Below, one piece after another: positions 1 through 33,619 of a stretch of 64,000 nt of DNA; within the stretch, counting starts at the first letter, position 1; every line of letters starts with the position of its first letter. The stretch covers positions 1 to 64,000 of the forward strand of contig JAIBAN010000036.1 in assembly GCA_019695185.1 (NCBI GenBank), written 5' to 3'. The stretch comes from Blastocatellia bacterium. GTDB taxonomy: Bacteria; Acidobacteriota; Blastocatellia; Chloracidobacteriales; Chloracidobacteriaceae. The notes below the pieces were generated by a model. That model had not been told where the DNA came from. It did no database searches and saw only the letters and a program-made list of their open reading frames with translations. Both the position numbers and the translations under genes were made by a program.

Positions 1-99
1 GTGACTGTGCCCGGAGGCTTGGCGTTGGCTGGGCCGGTGAAGGGCGAACCTGGGAATCCTACGTCAGTAGGTGGCCCGTTCCTTGGCGGCATGGCCTGA
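1..99 (+). CDS. Possible 3' tail of tnpB (partial)
   Basis: Frame 1 is open from the window edge to a TGA at 97-99 and encodes a Gly/Pro-rich tail containing GPVKGEPGNP and SVGGPFLGG. TnpB proteins often end in a poorly conserved tail of this kind, just before the right-end hairpin, and the tail region overlaps the omega RNA. No zinc-finger or RuvC motif is visible in the short piece seen here, so this is a positional inference. Frame 3 is also open through the hairpin, so the true reading frame is not certain. Confidence 0.3.
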   Translation: MTVPGGLALAGPVKGEPGNPTSVGGPFLGGMA

Positions 100-149
100 C
101 GGCCTCCACCCAAGGAATCCCCGCAATTCATTGCGGGGAGGACGTCAAG
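1..149 (+). mobile_element. Right end of an IS200/IS605-type element (truncated by window edge)
   Basis: A perfect 9-bp hairpin (CCCCGCAAT, loop TC, ATTGCGGGG; 119-138) is preceded by AAGGAAT and followed by AGGACGTCAAG. This is the typical layout of IS200/IS605/IS1341 right ends: a GAATCCCC-type foot, a subterminal hairpin, then GGGGAGGATGTCAA-like ending. These elements move by single-strand transposition without target duplication, and the right end also encodes the 3' part of the omega/re RNA used by TnpB. A PAS-domain coding sequence begins immediately after the inferred end (148-149), which is what an insertion into a gene would look like. The left end, tnpA and most of tnpB lie outside the window, so the family call rests on the end structure only. 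Confidence 0.62.
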
Positions 150-695: not shown

Positions 696-990
696 ATCAG
701 TCTGGCAGTTTGAGGCAAAGTGGAACCGTGGCACATGACCGGGCAGGCGATAGAGTCACTCAACCCAGTGGAGCCTTGCTTTCGGTTTTGGGGATGGCTG
801 GCTTTTTCCGGGGGAGGGGTAAGTCCGGAACCCGAACCCCCGTGAAACAAATCAACCTCAGTCCTTTTAAGTGGATGCCGTCTTTGCGCCCCCGTGTAGG
901 GCAAGGGCTGGTTGTCTGGAATTGGTGGAATTTGTCTGCTACTGTGTGGGCAACTCGTCATTTTAACACCCCTTGGTTATGTTCCAGCTT
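696..990. other. Intergenic stretch with one GC-rich hairpin, no gene seen
   Basis: No open frame here has protein-like composition. A GC-rich stem (CGGGGG 809-814 with CCCCCG 837-842, plus inner GGGT 817-820 with ACCC 830-833) is the only clear structure; no T-run follows it, so it is not a standard intrinsic terminator. Confidence 0.4.
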
Positions 991-2211: not shown

Positions 2212-2337
2212 GAAAAACTTCACACCTCGTCAGGGTTTTGCCTGGAGCGGGAAAGCTGATATTTCCAAATCTTCATGTGGTAAATTGGGCCTCCGGGCAA
2301 AATTCTGGCGTCTTTTTTTCAGGAAAATTCCACTGCC

Positions 2338-3945: not shown

Positions 3946-3970
3946 GCGGGTTTGGGGAAATTTGGAAAAT

Positions 3971-4068
3971 GTGGCGCGATTTGGTTCATCGCACTTGGAA
4001 AGAACTCTTTGGTTCGCCAAATCGAATGGAAGAGATAGGTCAAAACGCGATGAACCAAATCGCGTCAC
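3971..4068. terminator. Long inverted repeat between convergent genes (likely bidirectional terminator or intergenic repeat)
   Basis: Arm 3971-3992 (GTGGCGCGATTTGGTTCATCGC) and arm 4047-4068 are complementary over 22 bases with a single mismatch, separated by 54 bases. The spacer contains a partial echo of the arm (TTTGGTTCGCCAAATCG). The element lies between the ends of the carboxyltransferase gene (+) and the DUF5916 gene (-), the place where a shared terminator would be. No clear T-run is present, so an intergenic repeat is an equally good reading. Confidence 0.45.
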
Positions 4069-4083
4069 AATCCACGGAAACGC

Positions 4084-9497: not shown

Positions 9498-10760
9498 CAG
9501 GGCATTGGAAGGAACCTGCAAGTTAAAATCAGTCAGGCTGTGCAGCAAAAGCCCCAGACAGGCCGTCATGCTGGCACACCAGCCGGTCATCCAGGCAGGA
9601 GGTGGCGAGGTTGTTCCCTGCCGTCCCAACCAGATGAGATGAGCCCTGATGGTTTGAACCAAACCACCGACAAACAGCAGCAGCAAAACCCCACCAGCCA
9701 AACCAAGTTCGACAATAATTTGTAAAAGGTCGCAGTGGGCATGTTCCAGTCTCCATTCACCGGTTCCAGTGTCATATTGGGTATAGGCCACGGCAAACGA
9801 ACCCAGGCCCGTCCCCAGCCACGGATGGTCCGCAATCATTTTCACTGAATTCCGCCAGATGGCAGGCCGATCATAGGACTGCAGTCCCTGGGATTGGACA
9901 TCCGTCATGGTTTCCTGAATGCGGTCGGAAATTCCTTCACTGCCAACCCAGTACCAGCCCACTCCGATCATAAGCAGAATGCCCAGAACCAGTGCTGCGA
10001 CACTGAACAGGTTTTGTCTCCGCACGCCCATCTGGATAAAAAGCCAGCCTGAAACGAACAGCTCCAGCAATAAACACAGGGTCCCCGTACGGGAACCAGA
10101 AACCAACACCGTCACAGTCAGCAAAAAAGTGCCCACACCCAACAGCACTTTTTTGCCTGGGTTCAGTTTTTCCTCCAGCATCGCCAAAAATGGAAAAGGC
10201 CAGACCAACTCAACCCACCCCGCATAATGGTTGCGGTTGATAAAGGGGCCGGCAGAGAGTTTTTGGGCTGGCTGGACCGGCAAGCCAAAATCAAACAGCC
10301 AATAATATTTACCGTTGCCAAACAGCCATTGGAGGACAAAGAAAAAAGCCACCCCGCCACCCCACACGACCAACACCTTTCCAAGGTGGGAAACCCGCTC
10401 AGTGGTGGTCAGGGTTTGCAAGGCGGTAAACAACAAAATGGCATAAGCCACTCCCATCATCAGTGCCTGGTCCGTGTCCCAGGGTGAAAGTGAAACCGGG
10501 GTACCTTTTTGAATTGGGAGTAATTGACAGAGGCCAATGCCCAGCCCCCCCACCAGTATCCACCAGGGGAGTGGTAAATGATTTTTTCCGAGTGTTCCCA
10601 AACCAAAACGAATGGCCCAACCCACCAGTAACAAAGCCGCGCCGACCTGCAAAACGGCTTTTGACCAGGGTTCAACCGAGCCAAATGGAAGGGGACTCCA
10701 GCAAACCAGCACCAGCAGCAGATAAAATTGCGCATGCTCAATCCGCTCTGCAAGGTTCAT
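9426..10760 (-). CDS. O-antigen ligase / polymerase family membrane protein (Wzy/WaaL-like)
   Basis: 444 residues with about 10-12 hydrophobic helices. The region with NRNHYAGWVELVWPF, LVSGSRTGTLCLLLELFVS and HPWLGTGLGSFAVAY followed by HAHCDLLQIIVELGL is the Wzy_C signature: the large periplasmic loop with the conserved RxG...H...(D/N) residues. It would polymerise or ligate lipid-linked glycan units at the periplasmic face. It is the third gene of a minus-strand operon (FecR-like, TPR protein, this gene), and its ATG overlaps the TPR gene stop (ATGA at 10757-10760), suggesting coupled translation. Confidence 0.88.
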   Translation of the reverse strand: MNLAERIEHAQFYLLLVLVCWSPLPFGSVEPWSKAVLQVGAALLLVGWAIRFGLGTLGKNHLPLPWWILVGGLGIGLCQLLPIQKGTPVSLSPWDTDQALMMGVAYAILLFTALQTLTTTERVSHLGKVLVVWGGGVAFFFVLQWLFGNGKYYWLFDFGLPVQPAQKLSAGPFINRNHYAGWVELVWPFPFLAMLEEKLNPGKKVLLGVGTFLLTVTVLVSGSRTGTLCLLLELFVSGWLFIQMGVRRQNLFSVAALVLGILLMIGVGWYWVGSEGISDRIQETMTDVQSQGLQSYDRPAIWRNSVKMIADHPWLGTGLGSFAVAYTQYDTGTGEWRLEHAHCDLLQIIVELGLAGGVLLLLFVGGLVQTIRAHLIWLGRQGTTSPPPAWMTGWCASMTACLGLLLHSLTDFNLQVPSNALLFLVLVAVAFGRLLESAQGPIEP

Positions 10761-12004
10761 TGAAGTTCCTGAAGTTCAAAGCCGCCAAACCACAGGCGAC
10801 CGAAGATTGAACAGGGTTGGTCCGGCGGACAGGTGCCATATCGTCCGATGGAAATGGTCAGGGCGGAGATTCGGTCCGGCACTTGGAAGACCGTTTCGGT
10901 ACGCGTCCACGGGGCAGTGCCGCTCGCGCTGGGTGAGGATTCCATCACGTTTTGGTCGGACAACGGATAGGTTTGCGCGACACAACGGACCGGAACTCCC
11001 GTGGCCATCTGCTCAGTCCGACTCCAGAAGGAAAACCGGTACCGACCAAGAGGTTTCACCGGGAGCAGTTGCCAAACGTAGGACCCTCTCGACTCACCAT
11101 CAAACTCCAGCACCAGACTTTTCCCGGAACATTTCGGAGGGGGAGCGTCCAATGCTGCTGTGACGGTTTTAATTTCTGTTACCTGCCAGCCAAAATTCGG
11201 CCCGTTGTTCCCCAACGGTTGTGCAAAGTCACCGTTATCAAGAAGGTTGTTGGTTGGGCTGGCTTGTGTTTGGGGTGCTGATTGCTTCCAGATTTCCCAG
11301 GCTTCCGACACAAAATGAGTTTCAATCAGTTTTTTTATGAATGGCCCTGAGAAGATTTCCACTTTGGCAGGATATGGTGAAAAAAAAGAATGCCAGACCG
11401 CAAGTGCTGATTGGGGTTTGCCATTTTCCACCAGGTAGGTGACAAACGCCCATTGGGTATCGTCTCTCTGGGGAACAAGGGGCTGAATCAAGCCGGGGTC
11501 AGCCTGAAAGGACTCGGGCAGGAGTGAAAATGCAAGCGGTACAATGGAAGGGTTTTGGGCGAAAGATTGCTTTAGAAAAGGAGTGGCCTGCACAACCTTG
11601 TCTTGTTGCAGGTAATAGGCTGCCAAGTCCCAATTGGTCTGAAAAAAAGACGGAGCCAGCCGGTGGGCATTCAACAGGTTCTTTTCCACTTCATCCGGAT
11701 GGTCAAAAGAAGCCGCTTTCGCCCGGAGCCGCCACCAGCGGAAATCACAGGGGGCCAATTGGGTGGCCTGGGTCAGGTAGGTAAAGGCTTGGCTCGGGTT
11801 CGAAGATTCCAGGTCGTACAAATAACGATGGCCCAGTTCCCCCATCACGAGTGGATTGGGGGAAGCCAGGCCAGAAACTTTTTCGAGTGGGGCAATCCGA
11901 GGTTGATAGCGCAGTACCAATCCAACTTGCCCAGCTTGTATGGAACGCAATCCAAACCAAATGGCAAAAGCCAGGAGACCGGATGCAATTCCCCAGCGCC
12001 ACAT
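10757..12004 (-). CDS. Membrane-anchored TPR protein with C-terminal beta-sandwich-like region
   Basis: 415 residues. An N-terminal membrane helix (RWGIASGLLAFAIWFGL) is followed by TPR-like helical pairs (GELGHRYLYDLESSNPSQAF, ATQLAPCDFRWWRLRAKAAS, NAHRLAPSFFQTNWDLAAYY, about residues 55-240). The C-terminal 150 residues start at LLDNGDFAQPLGNNGPNFGW and look like a carbohydrate-binding jelly-roll (SLVLEFDGESRGSYVWQLLP, YRFSFWSRTEQ). The gene sits between the FecR-like protein and the O-antigen polymerase with start/stop overlaps on both sides, so a role as periplasmic scaffold for polymer assembly or secretion is likely. The precise function is not known. Confidence 0.75.
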   Translation of the reverse strand: MWRWGIASGLLAFAIWFGLRSIQAGQVGLVLRYQPRIAPLEKVSGLASPNPLVMGELGHRYLYDLESSNPSQAFTYLTQATQLAPCDFRWWRLRAKAASFDHPDEVEKNLLNAHRLAPSFFQTNWDLAAYYLQQDKVVQATPFLKQSFAQNPSIVPLAFSLLPESFQADPGLIQPLVPQRDDTQWAFVTYLVENGKPQSALAVWHSFFSPYPAKVEIFSGPFIKKLIETHFVSEAWEIWKQSAPQTQASPTNNLLDNGDFAQPLGNNGPNFGWQVTEIKTVTAALDAPPPKCSGKSLVLEFDGESRGSYVWQLLPVKPLGRYRFSFWSRTEQMATGVPVRCVAQTYPLSDQNVMESSPSASGTAPWTRTETVFQVPDRISALTISIGRYGTCPPDQPCSIFGRLWFGGFELQELQ

Positions 12005-12816: not shown

Positions 12817-12926
12817 CCCGAAAACTGTTGCAGGCAATGGTTGAAATGGCCCCTGCCGTTTTTACTGGACTGGAATTTCCAAAATCGGGTTTGGATTTTT
12901 TACAAATCAATTGAAGGAATGAAGGA

Positions 12927-14249
12927 ATGATGAACCAAACACCATCATCTGCCAACCCGCGTGTGGGAATTGTGGGCCTTGGTTATGTGGGGCTTCCGAT
13001 GGCCATTCAGTTTGCCAGGGCCAATTGTCAAACCGTGGGTTTCGATATTGACCAGGCTAAAACCAAGGCGGTGAATGAGGGAACCTCCTACATTAAAAAT
13101 ATCCCCTCGGAGGGGTTGGCCGAACAGGTTCAGAAAGGTCTCTTGCGGGCCACCACGGATTTTTCGGAAATTCAACATTTGGACGCCGTGCTCATTTGTG
13201 TCCCAACCCCGTTGAATTTGCACCGGGAACCGGACCTGTCCTTTGTGGTCAATACGGGCCGGACCATTGCACCGTTTATTCGCAAGGGGCAAGTTATCAG
13301 CCTGGAATCCACTACCTATCCCGGCACGACCGAAGAGGATTTGTTGCCAATTTTGGAAAAAGGGTCGGGCCTCAGAGCCGGGGTTGATTTTCATCTGGTT
13401 TTTTCACCTGAGCGGGAAGACCCTGGAAATCCGCATTTTGCCACCAGAGATATCCCCAAAGTGGTCGGCGGTCTCACCAGTGAATGTTGTCAGGCTGGCT
13501 GTGCCCTCTATGCCAGGGCGGTGAAAACCGTGATCCCGGTCACCTCAACCCGCGTCGCCGAAGCCGCCAAACTGGTGGAAAATATTTTTCGCAGCGTCAA
13601 TATCGCCATGGTCAATGAACTCAAAGTGGTTTTTGAGGCGATGGGAATTGACATTTGGGAAGTTCAGCAGGCAGCCCAAACCAAACCGTTCGGATTTATG
13701 CGGTTTGACCCAGGACCGGGGCTGGGCGGTCATTGCATTCCGATTGACCCGTTTTATTTGACCTGGAAAGCCAGGGAGTTTGGCATTCAAACCAAATTCA
13801 TTGAACTGGCTGGTGAAATCAATACGGCCATGCCGAAATACGTGATTACCCGGTTGTTGGAAGCCCTTTCCGACCGGGGAAAACCCCTGAAAAACTCAAA
13901 AATTCTGCTGCTGGGACTGGCCTATAAAAAAAATGTGGATGACCCACGCGAGTCCCCCTCCTTTGTCCTGTGGGACCTGTTACGGGAACGGGGAGCCCAG
14001 GTCAGTTACCACGACCCATTTATCCCGGTGGCCCCTTTTATGCGCCAGCATCCCCATTATGCCGGGAACCAATCGGTTCCTTTAACTGCTGAAACCCTTC
14101 GGGAATTCGATGCGGTCTTGATTGCGACTGCTCATGACGTTACTGATTTCACCTTTGTGGTGGAACATTCCTCTCTGGTGGTTGATACCCGAAACGCTTG
14201 TCATGCAGTGCCAGCCCGGTTGAAAGAAGGAAAAATCGTCAAAGCCTAA
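12927..14249 (+). CDS. UDP-N-acetyl-hexosamine 6-dehydrogenase (nucleotide sugar dehydrogenase)
   Basis: 440 residues. The Rossmann motif is GIVGLGYVGLPMA near residue 14. CVPTPLNLHREPDLSFV and SLESTTYPGTTEE match the WbpA/WecC/TviB branch, which oxidises UDP-GlcNAc, UDP-GalNAc or UDP-ManNAc to the uronic acid. The catalytic cysteine lies in GGHCIPIDPFYL (about 270), and the C-terminal UDP-binding domain has LLLGLAYKKNVDDPRESPS. This enzyme supplies an acidic amino sugar for the exopolysaccharide. The start is ATG 12927 or 12930, both behind GAAGGAATGAAGGA. It is the first gene of the plus-strand sugar operon, followed by the epimerase. Confidence 0.92.
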   Translation: MMNQTPSSANPRVGIVGLGYVGLPMAIQFARANCQTVGFDIDQAKTKAVNEGTSYIKNIPSEGLAEQVQKGLLRATTDFSEIQHLDAVLICVPTPLNLHREPDLSFVVNTGRTIAPFIRKGQVISLESTTYPGTTEEDLLPILEKGSGLRAGVDFHLVFSPEREDPGNPHFATRDIPKVVGGLTSECCQAGCALYARAVKTVIPVTSTRVAEAAKLVENIFRSVNIAMVNELKVVFEAMGIDIWEVQQAAQTKPFGFMRFDPGPGLGGHCIPIDPFYLTWKAREFGIQTKFIELAGEINTAMPKYVITRLLEALSDRGKPLKNSKILLLGLAYKKNVDDPRESPSFVLWDLLRERGAQVSYHDPFIPVAPFMRQHPHYAGNQSVPLTAETLREFDAVLIATAHDVTDFTFVVEHSSLVVDTRNACHAVPARLKEGKIVKA

Positions 14250-14385
14250 GGAAAAAATCGGGCAGTGGACTGAGGGCTGAACCTAGTTCCAGGGCGGGTG
14301 GTGAGTTGGCGGGGCTTGAGGTCTGTTGTGAATGCCCAAATCAAATTGAACTGCCAGCCAAAGCAGGGAAAGGAAAAGGGAGGAA

Positions 14386-15312
14386 ATGCGACAGTTAGTA
14401 ACGGGCGGAGCCGGATTCATTGGCAGCCACTTGGTTGAAGCGCTGCTTAAAGAAGGTCACGAAGTTCGTGTGGTGGACAGTTTGATAACCGGGCGCAGGT
14501 CAAACCTGGACACGTTTTACAAGGACATTGAATTTATTGAAGGTGACCTTGCCAATCCGGAAATTGCCCGCAAGGCTGTCCAGGGTGTGGACTGCATCTT
14601 TCATGAAGCAGCGGTTCCAAGTGTCCCCCGGTCGGTCGAAACTCCTTTGTTGACTCAACATAACGGCGAGATTGCCTTGTTGAATGTCCTGACGGAAGCC
14701 GTGGCGGCGGGTGTGCGGCGGGTGGTGCTGGCAGCTTCCTCCAGTGCCTATGGGGACACACCCACCTTACCCAAGGTGGAAACCATGCCCTCCAGTCCGC
14801 GCAGTCCCTACGCAGCTTCGAAGCTGGCCTGCGAAGGGTATCTGTCCGCTTTTGCCCATTCCTACCCGATTGATACGGTTTCCCTCCGGTATTTCAATGT
14901 GTTTGGGTTGCGTCAGGACCCCGGCAGCCCGTATTCCGGAGTGATTGCAAAATTCACCACGGTTATGAAAAAAGGGGAACGTCCGGTCATTTATGGGGAC
15001 GGAAAGCAAACCAGGGATTTTTGTTACATCGCCAATGCGGTCCAGGCCAATCTATTGGCCATGAGGCACCACAACCCGTTGAAAGGCGGAGTGTTTAACA
15101 TCGGTTATGGAAGACAAACCTCGTTGAATGAACTGGTGCGGGTTTTGAATCGCTTATTTGGAACCTCTTTAGAGCCGGTCTACCAGCCCAGCCGGGCAGG
15201 GGATGTGCGCGATTCCCTGGCTGACATTAGCAAAGCGGTTGGCGTTCTGGGGTATTGTCCCACTCATGACCTGGAAAGCGGGCTAAGGGAATTTCTGGCG
15301 CAATCGGAGTAA
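14386..15312 (+). CDS. NAD-dependent sugar epimerase (extended SDR, WbpP/GalE-like)
   Basis: 308 residues. The NAD site is VTGGAGFIGSHLVEAL at the N-terminus. The active-site pair is in SPYAASKLACEGYL (Tyr about 140, Lys about 144), with the preceding serines in AASSSAYGDTP. PGSPYSGVIAKF and DGKQTRDFCYIANAVQA are typical of UDP-GlcNAc/UDP-GlcNAcA 4-epimerases. Next to the nucleotide-sugar dehydrogenase this suggests a GlcNAc-to-GalNAc(uronate) route like WbpO/WbpP, which is an inference from context. SD GGGAGGA lies just upstream. Confidence 0.9.
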   Translation: MRQLVTGGAGFIGSHLVEALLKEGHEVRVVDSLITGRRSNLDTFYKDIEFIEGDLANPEIARKAVQGVDCIFHEAAVPSVPRSVETPLLTQHNGEIALLNVLTEAVAAGVRRVVLAASSSAYGDTPTLPKVETMPSSPRSPYAASKLACEGYLSAFAHSYPIDTVSLRYFNVFGLRQDPGSPYSGVIAKFTTVMKKGERPVIYGDGKQTRDFCYIANAVQANLLAMRHHNPLKGGVFNIGYGRQTSLNELVRVLNRLFGTSLEPVYQPSRAGDVRDSLADISKAVGVLGYCPTHDLESGLREFLAQSE

Positions 15313-15353
15313 GTCGGACTTGGCGTCCAGGCTCCGATGTCCAACAGCCCCAG

Positions 15354-16700
15354 ATGGGGAAGGCGAAAGCTGATTTTGTGAAAGTTGTACAGGCGACAGG
15401 TTGGTATTTTCCGGAATCCTCCGGCGGAACCGAGGTCTTTGTCAAAGGATTGACTGAAGGGTTGACGGAGCTTGGAGTCGAACCGCTGGTTTGTGCTCCC
15501 TGGGACCGCGAAACATCTGAAACCTACCAGTCATTTGGCTGTCCTGTATTTCGTTTTCCAGCCCCACACCTGCAAAACGGGAGCAACTTGTCCGTTTTTG
15601 AAACCTGGTTGCAGGAGGTGGGAGCCGACCTCTACCATCAGCATTCCTGGTCCGCCGGTTGTGGAGTGGAACACCTGAAAGTTGCTCACCGGCTGGGGTT
15701 AAAAACCATTTTGACGGTTCACGTACCTGGGTTTCATTGTTTGCAGGGGACCATGCTCCGGTACGGGAGGGAGGTTTGTGACGGGCGGCTTGATTCCTTC
15801 CACTGTGGAGCCTGTTGGGCCCATCAGCGCGGGCTTCCCTTGCCGTTTGCAAAGCTGTCAGCCCGCATCCCACCGCAGGTTGGCCAGCTTGGGGAAACGT
15901 TGCTGCCTGGAACCCAGTTCACTACCGCTATGGGGGTTCCTTTGGTTTTTCAGCGGTTTGCCACTGCTTTTCAACAAATTCCAATTTATACCGACCGGGT
16001 GGTGGCTGTTTGCCAATGGTTGTATGACATTCTGGCATTGAATGGAATTCCCCAGGAAAAACTGGTCCTGAGTCGGCAGGGTGTGGCTGAGGAGGTTGCC
16101 TCGGCGGTTCCTGAAAGCACTCCCCCAACTCAACCACGGTCGCTCCAAATTGGTTTTTTGGGAAGGCTGGACCCGGTCAAAGGGGTCCATATTCTGATAG
16201 AGGCCGTTGCCGGATTGCCCACCGAGGTTCCGGTCCGATTGGTGATTTATGGGCTGCCACAGACTGGAAATCATGACAAATATCAGATTTTACTGAAACA
16301 ATTGGCTGCTGCCGATCCCCGCATCAGGTTTGAGCCACCAGTGGGGCGAGACCGGCTGTATCATACCTTGACCAATTTGGACGTGCTGGCCGTTCCTTCC
16401 CAGTGGCTTGAAACGGGTCCCTTGGTGGTGTTGGAGGCCCAACAGGCCGGGGTCCCCATCCTGGGGGCCAACCTGGGCGGGATTGCCGAATTGGTGAAGG
16501 AAGGAGAAACCGGTTGGCTGGTGTCAGCCGCTGATGTCACCGCCTGGCGGGAAGCCATCTTGCGGCTTGCCACCAATCCGGACTGCCTGACCAAGCTGCG
16601 GACCAACCCCAAGCCGGTTCGCACCATGCGACAGGTGGCGCGGGAAATGAAGATTTTGTACGATGAGGTACTGGAGGGAGACGCACCTCCGACAGAGTGA
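15354..16700 (+). CDS. Glycosyltransferase family 4 (GT-B fold)
   Basis: 448 residues. N-terminal acceptor domain: VQATGWYFPESSGGTEVFVK and LYHQHSWSAGCGVEHL. C-terminal donor domain: LQIGFLGRLDPVKGVHILIE and the EX7E-type segment VPSQWLETGPLVVLEAQQAG. It transfers a sugar from a nucleotide donor onto the growing repeat unit on the cytosolic side. A cysteine-rich middle (FHCLQGT, REVCDGRLDSFHCGACWAHQ) is unusual and resembles the Cys segments seen in some cyanobacterial and acidobacterial GT4 proteins that bind a metal; this is only a suggestion. Confidence 0.87.
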   Translation: MGKAKADFVKVVQATGWYFPESSGGTEVFVKGLTEGLTELGVEPLVCAPWDRETSETYQSFGCPVFRFPAPHLQNGSNLSVFETWLQEVGADLYHQHSWSAGCGVEHLKVAHRLGLKTILTVHVPGFHCLQGTMLRYGREVCDGRLDSFHCGACWAHQRGLPLPFAKLSARIPPQVGQLGETLLPGTQFTTAMGVPLVFQRFATAFQQIPIYTDRVVAVCQWLYDILALNGIPQEKLVLSRQGVAEEVASAVPESTPPTQPRSLQIGFLGRLDPVKGVHILIEAVAGLPTEVPVRLVIYGLPQTGNHDKYQILLKQLAAADPRIRFEPPVGRDRLYHTLTNLDVLAVPSQWLETGPLVVLEAQQAGVPILGANLGGIAELVKEGETGWLVSAADVTAWREAILRLATNPDCLTKLRTNPKPVRTMRQVAREMKILYDEVLEGDAPPTE

Positions 16701-19870: not shown

Positions 19871-21622
19871 ATGTGTGGATTTATCGGCAGAATTCAGAAC
19901 GGTCCAGCCAATCGGCAGCGGCTGCCCTTGACGGCGGGATTGCCCCATCTGGCCCGCCGGGGGCCTGACTCAGCTCGGGTCTGGCAATCCAATGACGAGC
20001 GGGTTGAACTGTTGCATGCCCGGCTGGCCATCGTTGACACCGACAGTCGGGCGCATCAACCCTTTCGGGATGAAAACCTGGGGCTGACTGTGGTTTTCAA
20101 CGGGGAACTGTACAATTACCATGAATTGCGGTCCGAGTTGAACGGCTATGAATTTCGTACCACCTCCGATACCGAAGTCATTTTGGCCACTTATGCCTTG
20201 CAGGGAATCGAAGGATTTCGACGGTTTCGCGGCATGTTTTCACTTGCCTTGGCCGATGAAAAAAACGGCCAGGTCATTCTGGCCCGCGACCCGGTGGGAA
20301 AAAAACCTTTGTATCTGACCAATTGGAATGGCGACCGGCTCTTTGGTTCCTCGGTTTTTCCTTTGCTTGCCGCCCATAACCAGCCGGTTTCTTTGAATGT
20401 GGCCAGCGCTGCGTATTTTTGGGAAAAAGGATTTATTTATCCGGCGGAATCCGTGTTTGCTGATACCAAACCGCTCTTGCCGGGCCAAGTGCTCATACTG
20501 GATTGGAACGGGCGGGAGGTGGCCGCAGCGGATTGCACCCCCAGGAACACAGAACTATACCAAGGGGAATCCTGGAATGAGGTCGAGGAAAAAACCCGAC
20601 AGTTGTTGGAACAGGCCGTGGCCCGGCGGTTGACCAACAGTGTTCAGCCCACCGCATTGCTTTCAGGCGGGATTGATTCAACCGTGGTCACTAGGTTTGC
20701 CGAACAGATTTCCCGGCGGGAGGGGATGCCTCCCCTCCAGGCGCTTTCCCTGCGGTCTTTGGTCCCGTTGATGAATGACGATTTTTACAGCCGCTACGCC
20801 GCCCGCAAAATCGGAACCCGTCAGCAAATGGTGGGAATTTCTTTGCGCAATCCGGGCACGGCGGTAATACAGGCTTTTGCCCGGCAGGATGAACCGATTG
20901 CCGTTGCTTCTTATTTCATGCTGGCGCAACTGGTCCAGGCCGCTTCGGTTTATGGGAAAATTCTGTTGACCGGGGACGGGGGCGATGAAGTGTTCCTGGG
21001 GTACGGAAAGCCGGAGGATTGGAACTCCGCAACTCATGGCCCGACCTCGGTGCCGGGCGGGCCACCGCTGGTTCCCTGCGGGCCGGCGCTGCCAGGCTGG
21101 ATGAGTCCCTGGGCACAGGAAACGGTCACCAATACCCTGGTGGGCCATATGTTTGTCAAAACCGACCGGGCGGCTGCCGAACAAGGGGTTGAAATTCGCT
21201 GCCCGCTCTTGGACTGGGATGTCATGGCGTATATGCGGAGTCTTCCTTTTCCCCTGCTCACCGCGGGGAATCGTGCCAAGGCATTGCTTAAAGCCCAGTT
21301 GCCGGGGTGGCCTGGCTGGTTTCTGGAGCGACCCAAAATCGGCTTTGGCTATAACCTCAGGTGGCTATGGGCGGCCCGCCGGTTTGACGCTCTGCGCGAA
21401 AACATCGACCCGGAAGCCCAGCATCTGTTTGAAAGCCGATTGCCATCTGTTCTCATGAAGCCGGCCCGCCACTGGGCCACCAGGGATATTTTTAACCATT
21501 TTTCCACGGCGTGGAAGTTGCTTGCCTGGAGTTGTTTCCTCCAGAAGTACAAAACCGTTCACACGGGAGTGGCTTCCATCCCCGCAAAAACCTCAGTAGT
21601 CAGCAGAGGGTTGGTCCGTTGA
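19871..21622 (+). CDS. asnB: Asparagine synthase (glutamine-hydrolysing) type amidotransferase
   Basis: 583 residues. The N-terminal Ntn glutaminase begins MCGFIGRI with Cys2 as nucleophile, followed by RRGPDSARVW and VVFNGELYNYHEL. The ATP-pyrophosphatase synthetase domain has ALLSGGIDSTVVTRF (PP-loop about 262-272) and LTGDGGDEVFLGYGKPEDW. In exopolysaccharide loci such proteins often amidate sugar carboxylates rather than making free asparagine, which fits the uronate dehydrogenase upstream. A Pro/Gly-rich insert follows the GDEVFLGYG motif (SVPGGPPLVPCGPALPG, about 395-412) where AsnB normally has a helix. All glutaminase residues look intact, which argues against a lasso cyclase role. 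Confidence 0.86.
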   Translation: MCGFIGRIQNGPANRQRLPLTAGLPHLARRGPDSARVWQSNDERVELLHARLAIVDTDSRAHQPFRDENLGLTVVFNGELYNYHELRSELNGYEFRTTSDTEVILATYALQGIEGFRRFRGMFSLALADEKNGQVILARDPVGKKPLYLTNWNGDRLFGSSVFPLLAAHNQPVSLNVASAAYFWEKGFIYPAESVFADTKPLLPGQVLILDWNGREVAAADCTPRNTELYQGESWNEVEEKTRQLLEQAVARRLTNSVQPTALLSGGIDSTVVTRFAEQISRREGMPPLQALSLRSLVPLMNDDFYSRYAARKIGTRQQMVGISLRNPGTAVIQAFARQDEPIAVASYFMLAQLVQAASVYGKILLTGDGGDEVFLGYGKPEDWNSATHGPTSVPGGPPLVPCGPALPGWMSPWAQETVTNTLVGHMFVKTDRAAAEQGVEIRCPLLDWDVMAYMRSLPFPLLTAGNRAKALLKAQLPGWPGWFLERPKIGFGYNLRWLWAARRFDALRENIDPEAQHLFESRLPSVLMKPARHWATRDIFNHFSTAWKLLAWSCFLQKYKTVHTGVASIPAKTSVVSRGLVR

Positions 21623-27260: not shown

Positions 27261-28259
27261 ATGCGAACCGTTATCCGGGTTACTTTTGTCACCTTATTGT
27301 GTTTGGTTTTGCTCGCGGGGTTGCTCCCCGGTCTGCTTTTGCCGGAATCCACCCGGTACCGGATGCAATCCCGTATTGCCCACCTGGAGCGCAAGCTGGC
27401 CCGCTGGGATAATGTTGAAGCCAAGCCCATGGTGATGAAAGGCAGGTTGAATGTGCCCGGAGCCAGTATTCAAGAGCGGTTTGGTGCTTCGGGGTTGGCG
27501 GTTCTGGCGGATAAACTGGGGAATTTCGAGGTTCCGCAAATGACGTGGTTCCCTGGTCGGGAATATGCCTTGGTGGTGACGGCTCCCGGTTGGCAACTGC
27601 GGGAGGTTCGGGTTTTTGCTCCCTGGTTTTATCCGGAAAAAGGGGTTTTTCAGTTGGAACCAATTTCCCTGGTTCCGGGAGAGGAACCCGACCTGTTGTC
27701 AGTGCCGGGGCTGGCAGCCGCCCGGAGGCTGCCGTGTGACCAGGTGAACGAACAATTTTATCGAAATCTTTATCAGGAAATCACCCAGGGGTTGACCAGT
27801 CATGCCGACAAAATTGAAGCCTTGAACGCCTTTGTTTTCGGCAAGCGGAAAAAGAAACAGAAGGTGACGTTCCCGGTTGAGACGGCGCGCACCATTTTGG
27901 AAAACCCCCGGCCCTTTTCCTATTCCTGCGGAGAACTGGCACTGGCATTGGCCACCCTGGCACGGGCGGGAGGGTACAACGTGCGGATGGTGACTTTGAT
28001 CAAGCTGGTTCCCGATGAGAGTCCCTATACCCATGTTGTGGTTGAGGTTTCCTATAATTATACCTGGCACTTGTATGACCCGACCTATGGGGCAAGCTAC
28101 CACGATGAAGCCGGAAACGCTCTCAGCTTGTGTGAGGTCCGCACCAATCCGGATGTAACGGATACGCCTTTCGCCTCATCTCAGGTGGCACCATTGTTTC
28201 CAACCTGGATCAAATTGGTTTATGACAGCGGAACCCATTTTCTGGTCTATGTCCGATAA
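27261..28259 (+). CDS. Membrane-anchored transglutaminase-like protein, copy 1
   Basis: 332 residues. N-terminal membrane helix (VTLLCLVLLAGLLPGLLLP), a beta-sandwich like a regulatory CNA-B/CarboxypepD domain (LNVPGASIQ, GLAVLADKLGNFEVPQ, about 60-135), then a transglutaminase/protease-like domain with FSYSCGELALALATLARAGG (Cys about 223), YTHVVVEVSY (His about 257) and WHLYDPTYG (Asp about 272). The Cys-His-Asp triad is intact. Likely a periplasmic thiol enzyme acting on peptide or glycan amides. The adjacent gene is a paralogue with the same layout, so this is a tandem duplication. Confidence 0.8.
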   Translation: MRTVIRVTFVTLLCLVLLAGLLPGLLLPESTRYRMQSRIAHLERKLARWDNVEAKPMVMKGRLNVPGASIQERFGASGLAVLADKLGNFEVPQMTWFPGREYALVVTAPGWQLREVRVFAPWFYPEKGVFQLEPISLVPGEEPDLLSVPGLAAARRLPCDQVNEQFYRNLYQEITQGLTSHADKIEALNAFVFGKRKKKQKVTFPVETARTILENPRPFSYSCGELALALATLARAGGYNVRMVTLIKLVPDESPYTHVVVEVSYNYTWHLYDPTYGASYHDEAGNALSLCEVRTNPDVTDTPFASSQVAPLFPTWIKLVYDSGTHFLVYVR

Positions 28260-28395: not shown

Positions 28396-29457
28396 ATGAA
28401 ATTCCGCCCGCATTTTTTTTGGTTTGTGCCATTGTGTCTGGTGATTGGGGTGGGATTGTTTTGGGGATTGCTCCCTGAATCAAGGCAGTACCGGCTGGCC
28501 CGAGCCATGAAAAAAGCTCAAACCAAAATCGCCGCCTTAACGGGGAAAAAATCGGAACTGGCTTCGATTTCCGGTTATATTGGCCGGCCCGGAGTGCTGA
28601 TTCAGGCTTTGGACTCACCTTCCGGATGGGCAGCCTGTTCCGATGCCACCGGAAAATTCACTTTAATAGAGGAATCATGCTATCCCGGTGCCGAAATCGA
28701 ATTGGTGATTCCCATTTCCAGTGAAATGTCACAAAAGGTGACCGTCACTTTGCCAAAAAAGGTTTCCCAGCCGGGGCTGTTTGAAATTGGCAGAATTCCC
28801 ATCGAAAGAGCCAAGACTGTTTCAACCTCATCAGTCTGGGGGCGAAATGCCGTCAGTCTGGTGGATTACGACTTGGTGAACGATACCTATTACCGAAATC
28901 TGTTTGCCAAAATTACTGAAGGGAAGAAGACCGACCAGGAAAAACTGACGGCCCTCAATTACTTTGTGGCGGCGAAACTCAATTTTGACGAGGCCACCGC
29001 CGAGTATCATTCACCACGGCAAATTCTGGAGCGCGGTTCCAAATATTGTGGACCACTCAGTCTGGCCATGGCCACTTTGTCGCGTGCCGGCGGGTACCCA
29101 ACCCGCATGCTCCATCTGCGAACCGGAGGACCGTTTCCCAACTTTCATGCGGTGGTTGAGATTTATTATGACCAAAGTTGGCATGTTTTCGATGCCACCT
29201 ACGGCATTACCTTTCTCCGCCCGGACGGCTCGGTGGCCAGCTATCTGGACTTGCGCCTGACTCCGGAGTTGGTCACCCCTGAAACCCTCAAGGCCATTGC
29301 CCCGCGAGCCCGGCGGAGCGGGTACGCCTGGGTTCCCAACGCTTCCAACTCAGTATTTGTCTTTTTGGTCGAACCCCGCGATTTTGACGGCATCAGCCAG
29401 TGGATGCCCAGCCTTTATTCTTCCGGGATGTTTCACGAGTTTTATTTCAGGCTCTGA
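28396..29457 (+). CDS. Membrane-anchored transglutaminase-like protein, copy 2
   Basis: 353 residues, same architecture as the upstream gene: membrane helix (FFWFVPLCLVIGVGLFWGLL), heptad-like basic stretch (RAMKKAQTKIAALTGKKSEL), beta domain (SISGYIGRPGVLIQALDSPS), and a catalytic domain with KYCGPLSLAMATLSRAGGYP (Cys about 218), FHAVVEIYYD (His about 251) and WHVFDATYG (Asp about 265). Shared motifs such as NLF/NLYxxIT, LNxFV and ATLxRAGGY show common descent, while the beta domains have diverged, which suggests different binding partners. The gene ends one base before the nucleotidyltransferase gene on the other strand. Confidence 0.8.
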   Translation: MKFRPHFFWFVPLCLVIGVGLFWGLLPESRQYRLARAMKKAQTKIAALTGKKSELASISGYIGRPGVLIQALDSPSGWAACSDATGKFTLIEESCYPGAEIELVIPISSEMSQKVTVTLPKKVSQPGLFEIGRIPIERAKTVSTSSVWGRNAVSLVDYDLVNDTYYRNLFAKITEGKKTDQEKLTALNYFVAAKLNFDEATAEYHSPRQILERGSKYCGPLSLAMATLSRAGGYPTRMLHLRTGGPFPNFHAVVEIYYDQSWHVFDATYGITFLRPDGSVASYLDLRLTPELVTPETLKAIAPRARRSGYAWVPNASNSVFVFLVEPRDFDGISQWMPSLYSSGMFHEFYFRL

Positions 29458-29458
29458 C

Positions 29459-30574
29459 TCAGGTTGGTGAGTTTTTGGGGGTCAGTCTTCTGTGTAGGGC
29501 ATCAGTTGCCTGGCGGGACAAAAAGCGAAAACCAGTAGGGAAGGTATCGTGCAGACAAGCGGCAAAGAGAGTGGTTCCAAGATGGTGGAGCGGGCGACGG
29601 GGAGTGTCTTTGGGGAGGTTAAGTGCCAGTTTTTCAAGGGCCCACCCGCGCAGTGGCGAGCCCGGAAGGAATTGCGCCAGGTAGGGCGGAAGTGCGAACT
29701 GGAGTCGTTGTTGACATTGGGTCAGGGCAAATTGCAACGCACTGGTGACCCGGTATTGGTGGGCGCGCCGCACCACCATTTCCAGGTCAAGCGACGGGTG
29801 ACGGGTAAGAAAAAAACGCAGATCAAGCAGCCAAGATAACCGGGCAACCCGGTGCCCTGCGGCATGAACGGCCAGGAACAGAAATTCATCTTCCGGGGCG
29901 GGAATCAAAGTTTTAAGACTTCCCACGGTCTGATATGGAATGGCTCGTTGCATGACATCCAGGGCTGGCAAAGGGGTTCCAAACCCTTCGTGGGCATTGA
30001 AATGCAGTTCCACCGGGACCGACTTGGGGCGTTCAAAACCAAGTTCATGGAGGCTTTTCTGGGCTCCTTGCGGGAGGTTTTGTGGAGCAGTACCGGAAAT
30101 CCGATATCCCAAATCCGAGAGGCAGGCTGAGGCTTGGGGAAATTGTTCCGGGGCAATTAAAAAATCGAGGTCAGTGGAAATCCGGGTGGTTGGTACAGCA
30201 TAAATACGTTCAGCCAGCACTGGACCTTTCAGACAAACCACCTGGATGCCGGCCTTCTCGAATGCCGTCATGAGCTCAAACAGAGCTTCCTGAAGGCGCA
30301 ACCACAAGAGTTTACATCGGTTTTCCTGCTGCTGAAGGTATTGTTGCGTCAGTGGTTGCAATCGGATTCCCTGGGCTTCGGCCAGACTGGGCAGCATCCC
30401 TTCCAGATTGTGCAACACAGCACAAATCAAGAGAGGTTTCCATTCAGTATCGGTCAGCCTGAGAAACCAGTCACGCTCCTCATCCTCCAGGTTCTTTCGG
30501 AATAGGGTTTCGAGTTTTTGTTCGTATTCCCGAAATCGGGAGGAGGCTGCAAATTCGGCTTGTGCGTTCAGCAT
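29459..30574 (-). CDS. Nucleotidyltransferase family protein (NTP_transf_5 type)
   Basis: 371 residues. The nucleotidyltransferase core is KAGIQVVCLKGPVLAERIY followed by RISTDLDFLIAPEQ (metal-binding DxD at about 135-137). The helical C-terminal part has LFLAVHAAGHRVARLSWLLD, the usual HxxxH-like segment of this family. Such proteins are recurrent partners of lasso-peptide and HPr-rel-A loci, where they may modify a peptide or kinase product; the substrate is not established. It is the last gene of the minus-strand peptide-modification operon, 110 bases after the PqqD gene. Confidence 0.78.
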   Translation of the reverse strand: MLNAQAEFAASSRFREYEQKLETLFRKNLEDEERDWFLRLTDTEWKPLLICAVLHNLEGMLPSLAEAQGIRLQPLTQQYLQQQENRCKLLWLRLQEALFELMTAFEKAGIQVVCLKGPVLAERIYAVPTTRISTDLDFLIAPEQFPQASACLSDLGYRISGTAPQNLPQGAQKSLHELGFERPKSVPVELHFNAHEGFGTPLPALDVMQRAIPYQTVGSLKTLIPAPEDEFLFLAVHAAGHRVARLSWLLDLRFFLTRHPSLDLEMVVRRAHQYRVTSALQFALTQCQQRLQFALPPYLAQFLPGSPLRGWALEKLALNLPKDTPRRPLHHLGTTLFAACLHDTFPTGFRFLSRQATDALHRRLTPKNSPT

Positions 30575-30684
30575 GGAAAATCAGCCTGCCACTTTCCTTT
30601 GAATACAGTTTTGCGGATCCGGGAAAACACAGAAGACACTTGAGACCCCTCAGCAATTCCACGAAGTCAAGGCCACAGATAGGG

Positions 30685-30951
30685 TTACTGCCGTTGAACC
30701 AGTTCTGCCCGCTCAAGTTTTTCAAGAAAAGAAATCACTGCCCCCTGCAATCGTTCTTCACTTGCATCATATTCAGCCAGCAAGACTGCCACAATCTCCG
30801 GGACTGACTTTTGTTTCAGCAAAGATTTCCAAATCACTACGCCAGTGCTGTTGATGGTGTAATACCGTTTGGTCGTGAGGTGAAGCAGCACCATCGAGTC
30901 ATCAATCTCTGTGTGGATGACTGACGGATGAATGCTGTAGGAACCGGTCAT
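30685..30951 (-). CDS. PqqD-like peptide chaperone (RiPP recognition element, lasso B1 type)
   Basis: 88 residues, complete. The sequence SYSIHPSVIHTEIDDSMVLL, then TTKRYYTINSTGVVIWKSL and the helical tail VPEIVAVLLAEYD...LEKLERAELV, is the PqqD/RRE winged-helix pattern. These proteins bind the leader segment of a precursor peptide and present it to maturation enzymes. The start ATG (30951) overlaps the radical SAM stop as ATGA, with GGAGG upstream. Its partner is most likely the 48-residue peptide at 32977-33123, which has an F-x2-P-x-L leader motif. Confidence 0.85.
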   Translation of the reverse strand: MTGSYSIHPSVIHTEIDDSMVLLHLTTKRYYTINSTGVVIWKSLLKQKSVPEIVAVLLAEYDASEERLQGAVISFLEKLERAELVQRQ

Positions 30952-31937
30952 GAAGGAGAACCTCCGGATTGAAGGGAGTTGGGATTGGGTTGCCAAGTGG
31001 TTTTGCCAAAACAAGAGAGGCAATAATGACAGGGGAATTCGGCCTCGGGCTGGTTCTGCCTGAGGGCTGCGGTACGTCTGTCATTCTGCTCGGAAACGAG
31101 CTGAAGAAAATGCTGATAGGCCTCGGGAAATCGGACCTGATGCAGATTGGCGGCCACTTCAGGAGCTTGGCCGGCATGGCGAAAATCCGAAAGCTGGCAG
31201 CACAAGGTCATTTCACCATAACAGTTGATGTCAATGGTGGAGCCATGCAGGACATCGCAGGGCGGTTCAGGACCGGGATTGTATCTGGAAGCCGAAAAGG
31301 AAACCTCCATCTTCAGGATTTCATTTAATTGGGCGGCTTCGATTTCAACCGCCTGGCGGAGGTGCGGGGAAAGCGATAGTTCCGCATCCAGGCTCATGGA
31401 GGTTGGCAGCAAGTGGCTGAAGCGGACCCGTTGGGCTCCCAACCGGGCTCCCAAAACTGCCACCTTTTCCATGTCATGCCGGTTGTGCGAAGTAACCACC
31501 ATCTGAAAACTGAAGGGAAAGCGTTGCAATCGGCACAAACTGACAGCACTCATCAGCTTTTGAAAGGAACCTTTGCCTCGCACCTGGTCATGGGCTTCGG
31601 CATCAGCGGCGTCAATACTCAGGGAAACCATATGCAGCGCTGATCTGGTGGCGGTCAGATGGGGTACCAAACGGGGGAAATGCCAACCGTTGGTGATGAG
31701 GGCGAATTGGTATCCCAACTGTTCAGTCAGGCGCAAAGTTTCACCCAGATGCGGATACAGTGAAATTTCCCCGCCAGTGAAGGTGATTCGGTCAGCTCCA
31801 CATTCTTTTGCATCCTGTAACACCTGTAACAGTAAGGCATAATCCAGATGCTGTGCGGCGGAAACCTTCAGACAGTAGGCACAGTCAAGGTTGCACAAAT
31901 TGGTCAGTTCGACGGTGAGCTTGGTGAGGTGCTGCAT
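30948..31937 (-). CDS. Radical SAM enzyme with SPASM-like C-terminus
   Basis: 329 residues from ATG 31937, where the family N-terminus begins (MQHLTKLTVELTNLCNLDC). The [4Fe-4S]-SAM motif CxxxCxxC is C15, C19, C22; TFTGGEISLYPHL is the GGE motif. The C-terminus has CDVLHGSTIDINCYGEMTLC and CHYCLSCFGK, a SPASM-type set of cysteines for auxiliary clusters, typical of peptide-modifying radical SAM enzymes (PqqE/AlbA-like). The gene overlaps the kinase gene by 34 bases and the pqqD-like gene by 4, so it is translated in a tight operon. It would modify the adjacent peptide, perhaps by thioether or C-C bond formation; the reaction is unknown. Confidence 0.88.
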   Translation of the reverse strand: MQHLTKLTVELTNLCNLDCAYCLKVSAAQHLDYALLLQVLQDAKECGADRITFTGGEISLYPHLGETLRLTEQLGYQFALITNGWHFPRLVPHLTATRSALHMVSLSIDAADAEAHDQVRGKGSFQKLMSAVSLCRLQRFPFSFQMVVTSHNRHDMEKVAVLGARLGAQRVRFSHLLPTSMSLDAELSLSPHLRQAVEIEAAQLNEILKMEVSFSASRYNPGPEPPCDVLHGSTIDINCYGEMTLCCQLSDFRHAGQAPEVAANLHQVRFPEAYQHFLQLVSEQNDRRTAALRQNQPEAEFPCHYCLSCFGKTTWQPNPNSLQSGGSPS

Positions 31938-32980
31938 GGGTCTGAAACTGTCCGAACGGCTACACCCTGGCGAAGCAGATGTTCGGGGTCGAGTAAAGAT
32001 GCCAGCCGCGCCCGATCCTGAAGGACATCGGGGCAAAGTTGGAGTTCGAAACCATAACACGAACTGGCTAACGTACGAAAGACGGCCAGGTGTGCCGGTG
32101 AAGTTTCCCGGTCCAGCATCAGCCACAGACTGGATGGAATCAACCGGGTGAGGATGGCCTCAGGTGAAAGTGGTAAAATGCGAGTGTGCTGGCCGGTTGT
32201 TCGGGTCAAAGCAAGCAAAAACCTGATGCGGGTATTGGACTGGGATTGTTCAGGCCAAAGCTGAGACGGATTGAACTGGATTTTGCCTTTTACGGTTTGG
32301 TGGGCGTGCCCGGAAATCGGGGTTCCGTACCAGTGTAATGTTTCCGGGCGTAAAGCAAAAAATCTGCGGAAGGAACGAGCCAGGAAACCAGGAGGTTGAT
32401 GCGACTCTTGTGGGAGGGAGCTGACCAGCACCGAATCATCACTGACAAAATTCCAGCCTTGTTCGATTAAACCAAAAACAGTACTGCTTTTGCCCGCCGT
32501 GGAGTGACCCAGTAACAAGAACCCATTTCCCTGGCGGTCTACACACCCTGCATGGCTTTCAAACCAACCTAACCGGCGCAGGCACCACATCAGAATCAGC
32601 CGGAGAAATTGTTCCGGAATCTGAACCGTGAGGGAATGATGGTCAAATGCTAAGAGAATGTCAGTGGAAGAACCCAAGGAGCGGAGTTGGCATAAGATAT
32701 GCCAGTTGGCAAAAGAAAAAAAATAAACTGCCCCTTTTTTGACACACGAATAGCCATTCCACTCAAAAATGATGGAATGGCTATCCGGGTGAAACTCAAA
32801 ATCTGTGGGAAAACCGACTGTAAATTGTAAATTAGGTTGTGACTGAACGGCTTTTTCAAACCCGCCGTCAATGAGGGCCTGTTCAAGATCTTCCGCCAAG
32901 GATGAACCGGAACTGCAAACGGCAAACGTCAGTGACCGATTGTCTTCGGCGAAAAGCATCCAGTGGCAGTTTTTCCTCAA
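31904..32980 (-). CDS. HprK-like peptide/protein kinase (HPr-rel-A or lasso-kinase family)
   Basis: 358 residues from TTG 32980, whose codon overlaps the precursor stop (TTGA); ATG 32959 is an alternative. The P-loop is LLGHSTAGKSSTVFGL (about 155-170), in the order found in HPr kinase/phosphorylase, and GWNFVSDDSVLVSSL follows as the Walker B-like acidic pair. The N-terminal 150 residues and the C-terminal region do not look like canonical HprK. Related HprK-like kinases of lasso clusters (paeninodin type) phosphorylate a C-terminal Ser of the precursor, and HprK-related kinases with PqqD occur in exosortase loci. The only Ser/Thr near the C-terminus of the neighbouring peptide is Thr47. Confidence 0.78.
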   Translation of the reverse strand: MRKNCHWMLFAEDNRSLTFAVCSSGSSLAEDLEQALIDGGFEKAVQSQPNLQFTVGFPTDFEFHPDSHSIIFEWNGYSCVKKGAVYFFSFANWHILCQLRSLGSSTDILLAFDHHSLTVQIPEQFLRLILMWCLRRLGWFESHAGCVDRQGNGFLLLGHSTAGKSSTVFGLIEQGWNFVSDDSVLVSSLPQESHQPPGFLARSFRRFFALRPETLHWYGTPISGHAHQTVKGKIQFNPSQLWPEQSQSNTRIRFLLALTRTTGQHTRILPLSPEAILTRLIPSSLWLMLDRETSPAHLAVFRTLASSCYGFELQLCPDVLQDRARLASLLDPEHLLRQGVAVRTVSDPCSTSPSSPSN

Positions 32981-33123
32981 AAAGTTCCGATAAAGGCTTC
33001 TTGGGCAAATCCTTGAATTTGGCGTTCCATTTCATCGAACTCACGTAATTCAGGTTCGACAAACACTTTTTTCTCCTTCGGAAGCGTTTCGATTGAATGA
33101 CCGTTCTGGAATTCGTTGGACAT
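32977..33123 (-). CDS. Candidate RiPP precursor peptide (48 residues)
   Basis: 48 residues (MSNEFQNGHSIETLPKEKKV... ending GFAQEAFIGTF), with a strong SD AGGAG (33131-33135) seven bases before ATG 33123. F21-V-E-P24-E-L26 followed at +4 by D30 resembles the Y-x2-P-x-L-x3-G leader motif that PqqD/B1 proteins recognise in lasso precursors (Phe for Tyr, Asp for Gly). The C-terminal part is rich in Gly, Phe and Gln. A lasso core would need Gly/Ala/Ser/Cys at 1 and Asp/Glu at 7-9; starting at G38, the only acidic residue is at position 5. It lies between the B2-like gene (10 bases) and the kinase gene (4-base overlap). It may instead be a small carrier protein. Confidence 0.72.
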   Translation of the reverse strand: MSNEFQNGHSIETLPKEKKVFVEPELREFDEMERQIQGFAQEAFIGTF

Positions 33124-33133
33124 GGCTTGGCTC

Positions 33134-33619
33134 CTACTCCAAGTGGTTTGAGAGATGGTTTCTCTTTCTGGTGTACCGATATAAAACCTTGAAAACTTGA
33201 GCTGGATTGGCCGGTTCGGCAATTGGCTCGCCGTTGACTTCAATCCAACTATGACTTGAAAGTTGCCCTTGATGTAAATGAACGCCGATCACCAGGGTTG
33301 TGGTTGTAAACTCTCTTGGTAAAAAGCCGTACAGAAGTACCGAACGCAAAAGGCACTTCCCAATTCCGTAATTCGGTAGAAATTGGATCACCTGGGAAAA
33401 CAAGGCGGCGTGCTCTGATGCAGTAAATCTTTCGGTGGACAAAAAGAACGGCGCTATATTTACATAATCAAGCAATTTAAGCAACCTTGGCAGTGAAAAT
33501 ACCTTGATCAAGAATGGCACCCATAAGAAAAAGAGCCCTGCCTGAGCTGCCAGATTTGCTTTGTAAAACATTTTCCGAAAGAACTGCCAGGATGTCCCAG
33601 GTTTTTCACCAACCGCCAT
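33134..33619 (-). CDS. Lasso-peptide B2-like protein (transglutaminase-fold leader peptidase)
   Basis: 161 residues. The C-terminal half carries GIGKCLLRSVLLYGFLP (Cys89), TLVIGVHLHQGQLSSHSWIE (His123) and GEPIAEPANP, the pattern of B2/McjB-type leader peptidases. The third catalytic residue, normally Asp, may be Glu131 or Glu135. The N-terminal half (about 20-60) is helical with hydrophobic stretches (AAQAGLFFLWVPFLI) that are common in B2 proteins. It is the first gene of the operon and would cleave the leader of the adjacent peptide. The ATG at 33619 has no good ribosome site. Confidence 0.85.
   Translation of the reverse strand: MAVGEKPGTSWQFFRKMFYKANLAAQAGLFFLWVPFLIKVFSLPRLLKLLDYVNIAPFFLSTERFTASEHAALFSQVIQFLPNYGIGKCLLRSVLLYGFLPREFTTTTLVIGVHLHQGQLSSHSWIEVNGEPIAEPANPAQVFKVLYRYTRKRNHLSNHLE

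Follow-up and report, generated by a model that had tools for sequence, protein, structure and literature searches.

We analyzed a window of 64,000 nt (contig JAIBAN010000036.1, positions 1 to 64,000) from the genome of a Blastocatellia bacterium (GCA_019695185.1), a relative of Chloracidobacterium. It contains a tight operon of six open reading frames on the minus strand at 29459-33619. The six minus-strand genes and the distances between them (10, -4, -34, -4, and 110 nt) that an initial annotation had reported were reproduced base for base when recalculated from the coordinates of the reading frames. The B2-type protease, HprK-like kinase, PqqD-like protein, and NTP_transf_5 protein named there each scored above the cut-off of the respective family. 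The first gene (33134-33619) encodes the B2-type leader protease, a transglutaminase-like cysteine protease of 161 aa with matches to lasso_biosyn_B2 (NF033537; 42.9 bits, cut-off 33) and Transglut_core3 (PF13471; 1.4e-11). Its residues Cys89, His123, and Glu135 were invariant in 20 of 20 homologs, and hmmsearch against PDB sequences gave no match. The HprK-like kinase (31904-32980; 358 aa, TTG start) reached 34.5 bits for Hpr_kinase_C (Pfam cut-off 33.3), and its P-loop GHSTAGKS, His143, and Asp181-Asp182 were invariant in the homologs. It is followed by a radical SAM enzyme of 329 aa (30948-31937; PF04055, 65.9 bits, cut-off 29.5), a discrete RiPP (ribosomally synthesized and post-translationally modified peptide) recognition element (RRE) of the PqqD family with 88 aa (30685-30951; 63.4 bits, cut-off 23.4), and a nucleotidyltransferase of 371 aa (29459-30574; NTP_transf_5, PF14907, 149.5 bits, cut-off 31.2), which has the same position in homologous operons.

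Between the protease and the kinase genes a peptide of 48 aa is encoded (32977-33123), which matched no family in Pfam or NCBIfam. Its ATG is preceded at a distance of 7 nt by the ribosome-binding sequence AGGAG (33131-33135). In lasso peptide leaders, YxxPxL occupies positions -17 to -12, and residue -2 is Thr or, in some cases, Ile (PMC10368454). In this register (Duan 2023), residues 1-37 of the window peptide form the predicted leader, which ends with F(-17)VEPEL(-12)REFDEMERQI(-2)Q and is followed by the predicted 11-residue core GFAQEAFIGTF (32980-33012). The predicted RRE-binding motif FVEPEL (residues 21-26; 33046-33063) could be aligned with all homologs. Phe was present at -17 in 32 of 32 collected peptides, and Thr or Ile at -2 in 31 of them when the final occurrence of the search motif set the register. 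Only the Brocadia peptide deviated; it has two overlapping FxEPKL motifs, of which the first leads to His and the second to Thr at -2; the second motif was preferred, a choice made after the data had been seen. The predicted cores comprise 11-15 residues, and Cys was absent from the leader motif segment and the core in all 32 peptides. The core is nearly invariant within six Chloracidobacterium-type genomes (GLRVLEAFTASFIAP in Chloracidobacterium) and fully different between genera, as seen for GFAQEAFIGTF, SPSPLIGQFSP (L077), FFQATSSGATN (Pyrinomonadaceae), and QSNGFFSAFVP.

When 58 genomes (the window's own and relatives) were searched with the radical SAM protein, close homologs were found in these six Chloracidobacterium-type genomes, all from one genus of the same family. 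The order of the genes for B2, peptide, kinase, radical SAM enzyme, PqqD protein, and nucleotidyltransferase was identical in all six. An alignment of the window peptide with the six Chloracidobacterium-type peptides and two peptides from genome G015 revealed eight invariant residues. From the KK residues onward, the six Chloracidobacterium-type sequences showed 0.01-0.10 non-synonymous differences per site (pN) compared to 0.39-0.90 synonymous differences (pS). Since pN was far below pS, the peptide is translated and under purifying selection. A seventh genome of this genus, G004, lacks the operon and provides an empty site. Positions 1-4189 of locus L033 (genome G005) matched 8550-12755 of L097 (G004) at 92%, and positions 8475-11599 matched 12876-16001 at 96%. 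In place of the intervening stretch of L033 (4190-8474), which covers the operon except for some 60 bases at the end of the nucleotidyltransferase gene, G004 has about 120 bases. The intact flanks around the missing block led us to conclude that the six genes were gained or lost as one unit. The operon is not a chance arrangement, because gene order and a homologous small open reading frame recur in six genomes, the peptide evolves as a protein, and an empty site exists.

Scanning species genomes with the radical SAM alignment yielded 31 loci (L051-L081), 28 of which were clear relatives. These originated from Chloracidobacterium-type bacteria, from Pyrinomonadaceae and other Acidobacteria metagenome-assembled genomes (MAGs), and from Candidatus Brocadia pituitae. 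The small open reading frame, on which the initial annotation had built its interpretation, was kept beside the kinase gene across the Blastocatellia and in one planctomycete. L077 from an Acidobacteria gp5 MAG harbors the genes for B2, peptide, kinase, and radical SAM enzyme in the order of the window; in Ca. Brocadia pituitae (L071) peptide, kinase, radical SAM enzyme, PqqD, B2, and nucleotidyltransferase are encoded on one strand. The Pyrinomonadaceae type mostly consists of nucleotidyltransferase, a gene without known family, peptide, kinase, radical SAM enzyme, and PqqD, often joined by a gene pair for a protein of 188 aa and a membrane protein. Of 396 genomes sampled evenly across the phylum, 8 had a match to the radical SAM protein (E<=1e-30), and the operon context was present in five of those eight; the operon is therefore rare. 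The contig scan used just two short peptide patterns, and the range outside the Acidobacteriota is a lower bound.

The initial annotation had also considered a modified small phosphorylated carrier, with HPr-rel-A loci as a reference. A small acidic peptide adjoining an HprK-like kinase could indeed act as an HPr-like phosphocarrier or regulator and not as a RiPP precursor, but the lasso-type leader register and the B2 protease encoded alongside do not fit such a function. The HPr-rel-A models stayed far below their cut-offs (TIGR04352 kinase, 27 of 200 bits; TIGR04353 PqqD, 16.1 of 35 bits). HPr-rel-A membership was rejected, and we regard a phosphocarrier as very improbable. HprK-like, PqqD-like, and radical SAM proteins also occur together in SynChlorMet loci (TIGR04248-04251). 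Those loci have two radical SAM proteins, whereas the operon has one, besides B2 and the lasso-type leader; with ScmF at 72.5 of 400, ScmE at 70.3 of 400, ScmD at 31.4 of 100, and ScmC at 19.3 of 125 bits, this assignment was rejected as well.

The absence of a macrolactam cyclase, as stated in the initial annotation, was confirmed. A lasso cyclase in the same operon of relatives was sought, and neither a lasso cyclase nor an Asn synthase was found in the 28 related loci with flanks of up to 8 kb a side. The Asn-synthase-like protein of the window, used as a query, gave nothing credible in loci L051-L081. This query retrieves the cyclases of Chloracidobacterium at 4e-12 or better, and a cyclase in the loci would therefore have been expected to show. 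A canonical lasso cluster with RRE, B2, cyclase, precursor, and kinase is present elsewhere in the Chloracidobacterium genomes; in the two that are nearly closed it lies 1.2-1.5 Mb away from the radical SAM operon. The cyclase of L123 reached 274 bits with the lasso cyclase model compared to 193 bits for Asn synthase. G004 has kept the B2/cyclase pair of the lasso cluster without the radical SAM operon, so that the two systems are separate. In the same register, the lasso precursors of Chloracidobacterium show Tyr(-17), Thr(-2), and ring Asp9 (e.g., ATSGGIRAD). Since it yields Asp9 in true lasso precursors, the register is trustworthy.

In this register the window core holds Glu5 only, the Chloracidobacterium core Glu6, and the L077 core no Asp or Glu, in agreement with the earlier statement that a ring residue at positions 7-9 is lacking. 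We considered a lasso operon with a cyclase acting from elsewhere in the genome, since B1, B2, kinase, nucleotidyltransferase, and leader register are all lasso-like and a few Pyrinomonadaceae peptides have Asp or Glu at core positions 8-9. The genome contradicts this explanation: the genome of the window (G000) had no lasso cyclase at E<=1e-60 and a single B2, and the Asn-synthase-like protein (19871-21622, plus strand) matched Asn synthase with 275 bits and reached 124 of 525 bits with the lasso cyclase model. A cyclase in trans was rejected for G000 and for this gene, and overall there is hardly any chance that it applies. The gene at 19871-21622 codes for an amidotransferase inside an exopolysaccharide (EPS) locus, and its match to the Asn_synthase domain is split in two pieces.

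The solved structures nearest to the window RRE were TbiB1 (6.9e-17), TfuB1 (5.6e-14), and a paeninodin-type B1 (2e-11), although the NCBIfam lasso PqqD models scored below cut-off (54.8 of 70). A B1-type RRE occurs together with a leader register of lasso type (aromatic residue at -17, Pro at -14, Thr or Ile at -2). In the system of linear polyphosphorylated peptides (LPP; Popov et al. 2026, PMC13381572), Asp70 of the RRE forms a hydrogen bond to Tyr(-16), and the exchange D70A weakens binding; a paeninodin-type RRE has Gln at this position and binds Trp. Asp70 of LppB and the Asp of TbiB1 and TfuB1 fell in one column of the HMMER alignment. This column held Asp in 3 of 3 lasso RREs from Chloracidobacterium genomes. 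Among the 29 RREs of the radical SAM operon family it was occupied by Ser in 26 sequences and by Ala (Ala71 of the window protein), Asn, and Thr in one each. The loss of Asp fits Phe(-17), because Phe has no hydroxyl group to bond. The combinations Phe/Ser and Tyr/Asp offer a natural test of how RREs separate two pathways in one cell.

The initial annotation had described the third enzyme as a radical SAM/SPASM protein. The radical SAM assignment held, while Pfam SPASM did not match the window protein; the Brocadia homolog gave a sub-threshold SPASM match. The motif CX3CX2C and five Cys in the C-terminal part (C227, C246, C247, C303, C306) were invariant in 29 sequences, and C135 is present in the window protein. 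The five C-terminal Cys would fit a SPASM/twitch-like auxiliary cluster. The AlphaFold model (mean pLDDT 87) was closest to SuiB (Z 25.9), SkfB (24.4), and BlsE (23.8) among solved folds. It shares the fold of the RiPP maturases SuiB (streptide), SkfB (sactipeptide), and EpeE (epipeptide) at 12-21% identity. Unlike in those systems, the precursor of the operon has no Cys, and to our knowledge neither B2 nor an HprK-like kinase accompanies SuiB, SkfB, or EpeE. As Cys is missing from every precursor, thioether links are ruled out, and a sactipeptide or ranthipeptide was rejected on the basis of all 32 peptides.

Foldseek listed BlsE, a nucleotide-sugar decarboxylase, as the first match of the model, and BlsE also headed the PDB matches by sequence. 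The radical SAM enzyme might accordingly make an unusual nucleotide or sugar, which the NTP_transf_5 enzyme attaches to a peptide that is phosphorylated and decorated as in LPP. The authors of the LPP study suggested that LppN needs a partner making a rare substrate (PMC13381572), and in the window a distance of about 5 kb separates the operon from the EPS locus. However, the structural scores of SuiB and SkfB equal or exceed that of BlsE, the radical SAM and RRE genes, which share 4 bp in the window, are direct neighbors in many loci, and LPP clusters with kinase and nucleotidyltransferase have no radical SAM protein as a core gene. We consider a nucleotide or sugar product unlikely. The modeled fold is compatible with either a peptide or a nucleotide sugar, and we infer the peptide as the substrate.

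In leader handling the operon works like the lasso and LPP systems. It has B1, B2, HprK-like kinase, nucleotidyltransferase, and the leader register from -17 to -12 in common with phosphorylated lasso peptides (paeninodin; Bsf, PMC10368454), and Ile(-2) is shared by the window peptide, Bsf, and Acidobacteriaceae lasso precursors. In contrast to paeninodin and Bsf, the operon has a radical SAM enzyme and no cyclase, and the window core has no ring Asp or Glu. A discrete lasso-type RRE, an HprK-like kinase, an NTP transferase, an aromatic-xxP leader, and the lack of a cyclase are shared with LPP, which may likewise occur in a host that also carries a distinct lasso cluster. LPP has a SipW-like signal peptidase, an MsbA-like exporter, Tyr(-16) together with Asp70 of the RRE, and Ser3. 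The operon retains B2, includes a radical SAM enzyme in addition, and combines Phe(-17) with Ser or Ala in the RRE; core residue 3 is Ala in the window and Arg in Chloracidobacterium. An archaeal-type signal peptidase I, the leader protease of LPP, was not among the neighbors scanned with Pfam or NCBIfam, where B2 is present instead. The operon belongs neither to the lasso systems (cyclase, ring residue) nor to LPP (signal peptidase, Ser3).

The best reading is a RiPP family that is sister to lasso peptides and LPP, with a radical SAM step and without macrolactam formation. The conserved small open reading frame, the missing cyclase, and the missing Asp/Glu at 7-9 supported the non-lasso RiPP put forward in the initial annotation, and we consider it fairly probable that the operon makes a RiPP by lasso-type recognition and leader removal with a radical SAM enzyme and no macrolactam cyclase. 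Chances are about even that it represents a distinct class, mainly of Blastocatellia, in which the lasso set of RRE, B2, kinase, and nucleotidyltransferase is combined with a radical SAM enzyme acting on a Cys-free core of 11-15 residues, and in which a third RRE code (Phe(-17) with a Ser/Ala pocket) keeps it distinct from a true lasso pathway within one cell. The RRE would bind the leader at F(-17)VEPEL(-12) and bring peptide and radical SAM enzyme together. This enzyme would alter the core without involving Cys, most likely by epimerization or by crosslinking a Phe through a C-C or C-O bond. The kinase may phosphorylate a Ser or Thr of the core. In the window this would be Thr10, the sole hydroxyl residue of the core, which aligns with Ser11 of Chloracidobacterium in the motif EAFxx[ST]F. 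By analogy to LPP and paeninodin, the NTP_transf_5 enzyme could extend the phosphate. B2, with its conserved active-site residues, would together with the RRE cut after Ile(-2)-Gln(-1) and release the 11-mer. The relative order of the steps after leader binding is left free.

Several observations weigh against this interpretation. Homologous kinases of LPP and Bsf phosphorylate core Ser3 (PMC13381572, PMC10368454), where the window core has Ala3, and the LPP kinase rejected Thr at this site (PMC13381572). By sequence, BlsE ties with PqqE and SkfB among the PDB matches of the radical SAM enzyme. The match between RRE and leader rests on few independent lineages, as the 29 RREs are related sequences that stand for few events. 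In most Pyrinomonadaceae loci B2 is encoded on the opposite strand and up to several kb off, which makes its link to the peptide weaker there. In L094 from another class of the phylum, a diverged precursor-like peptide (6203-6472) with an FEEPSI motif and a long Gly-rich tail precedes kinase, radical SAM enzyme, and PqqD, but it has Gln at -2 and no B2 in range. Finally, no dedicated exporter was found. A lack of a conserved exporter would be expected for an intracellular peptide-derived redox cofactor similar to PQQ or mycofactocin, and RRE, radical SAM enzyme, and protease form the layout of those pathways; the near invariance of the core in the six Chloracidobacterium-type genomes points in the same direction. 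Yet the core differs fully between genera, kinase and nucleotidyltransferase are not enzymes of cofactor pathways, and the RRE is lasso-B1-like and matched PqqD of the PQQ pathway weakly (7.5e-4). A redox cofactor instead of a secreted peptide is thus quite improbable.

LPP demonstrated that lasso machinery works without a cyclase. As a RiPP system, the operon would be a second and different departure in other phyla, which keeps the lasso leader protease and adds radical chemistry. Being short and testable, the operon is suited to the study of a radical SAM reaction for which thioether formation is excluded. We found no published description of it in the open literature searched, a scope that left most subscription journals outside.

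A link of the operon to the neighboring polysaccharide locus, as suggested in the initial annotation, did not hold in Chloracidobacterium, where the operon is flanked by ATP-grasp and mnmG-like genes and the EPS locus is not adjacent. In the window, two transglutaminase-core proteins, each hydrophobic at the N-terminus, are encoded in tandem (27261-28259 and 28396-29457, plus strand) and convergently with the operon; they were not seen beside it in relatives.

Genomes of group f7 (L040-L049) encode a radical SAM homolog with about 30% identity, possibly a paralog with another substrate. The stretches read contained no RRE or kinase match, and these loci were left out of the family. In many loci the pair consisting of the 188-aa and the membrane protein follows PqqD (L039 3752-5226, L060 10531-12344); the two have no Pfam or NCBIfam family and are reminiscent of SdpA/SdpB-type pairs. 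A protein of 356-361 aa with an FHTSRCGSTL-type motif is encoded between radical SAM enzyme and PqqD in L060 (9124-10194) and L070 (8896-9981). It looks sulfotransferase-like by eye, the L060 copy had no Pfam match, and it may be an extra tailoring enzyme. In most Pyrinomonadaceae-type loci the peptide is preceded by a conserved protein (L039 8736-9698 and homologs), which is about 260-320 aa long, begins with a signal-like N-terminus, and matched no family. Large secreted-looking proteins are encoded downstream of Pyrinomonadaceae-type operons in L055 (9601-13569), L059 (12092-13393), and L094 (10177-13789). They comprise a Lamin Tail Domain (LTD) and Big_5 in L055 and a weak LTD match in L059, L094 being similar by eye, and could be a partner or target of the peptide.

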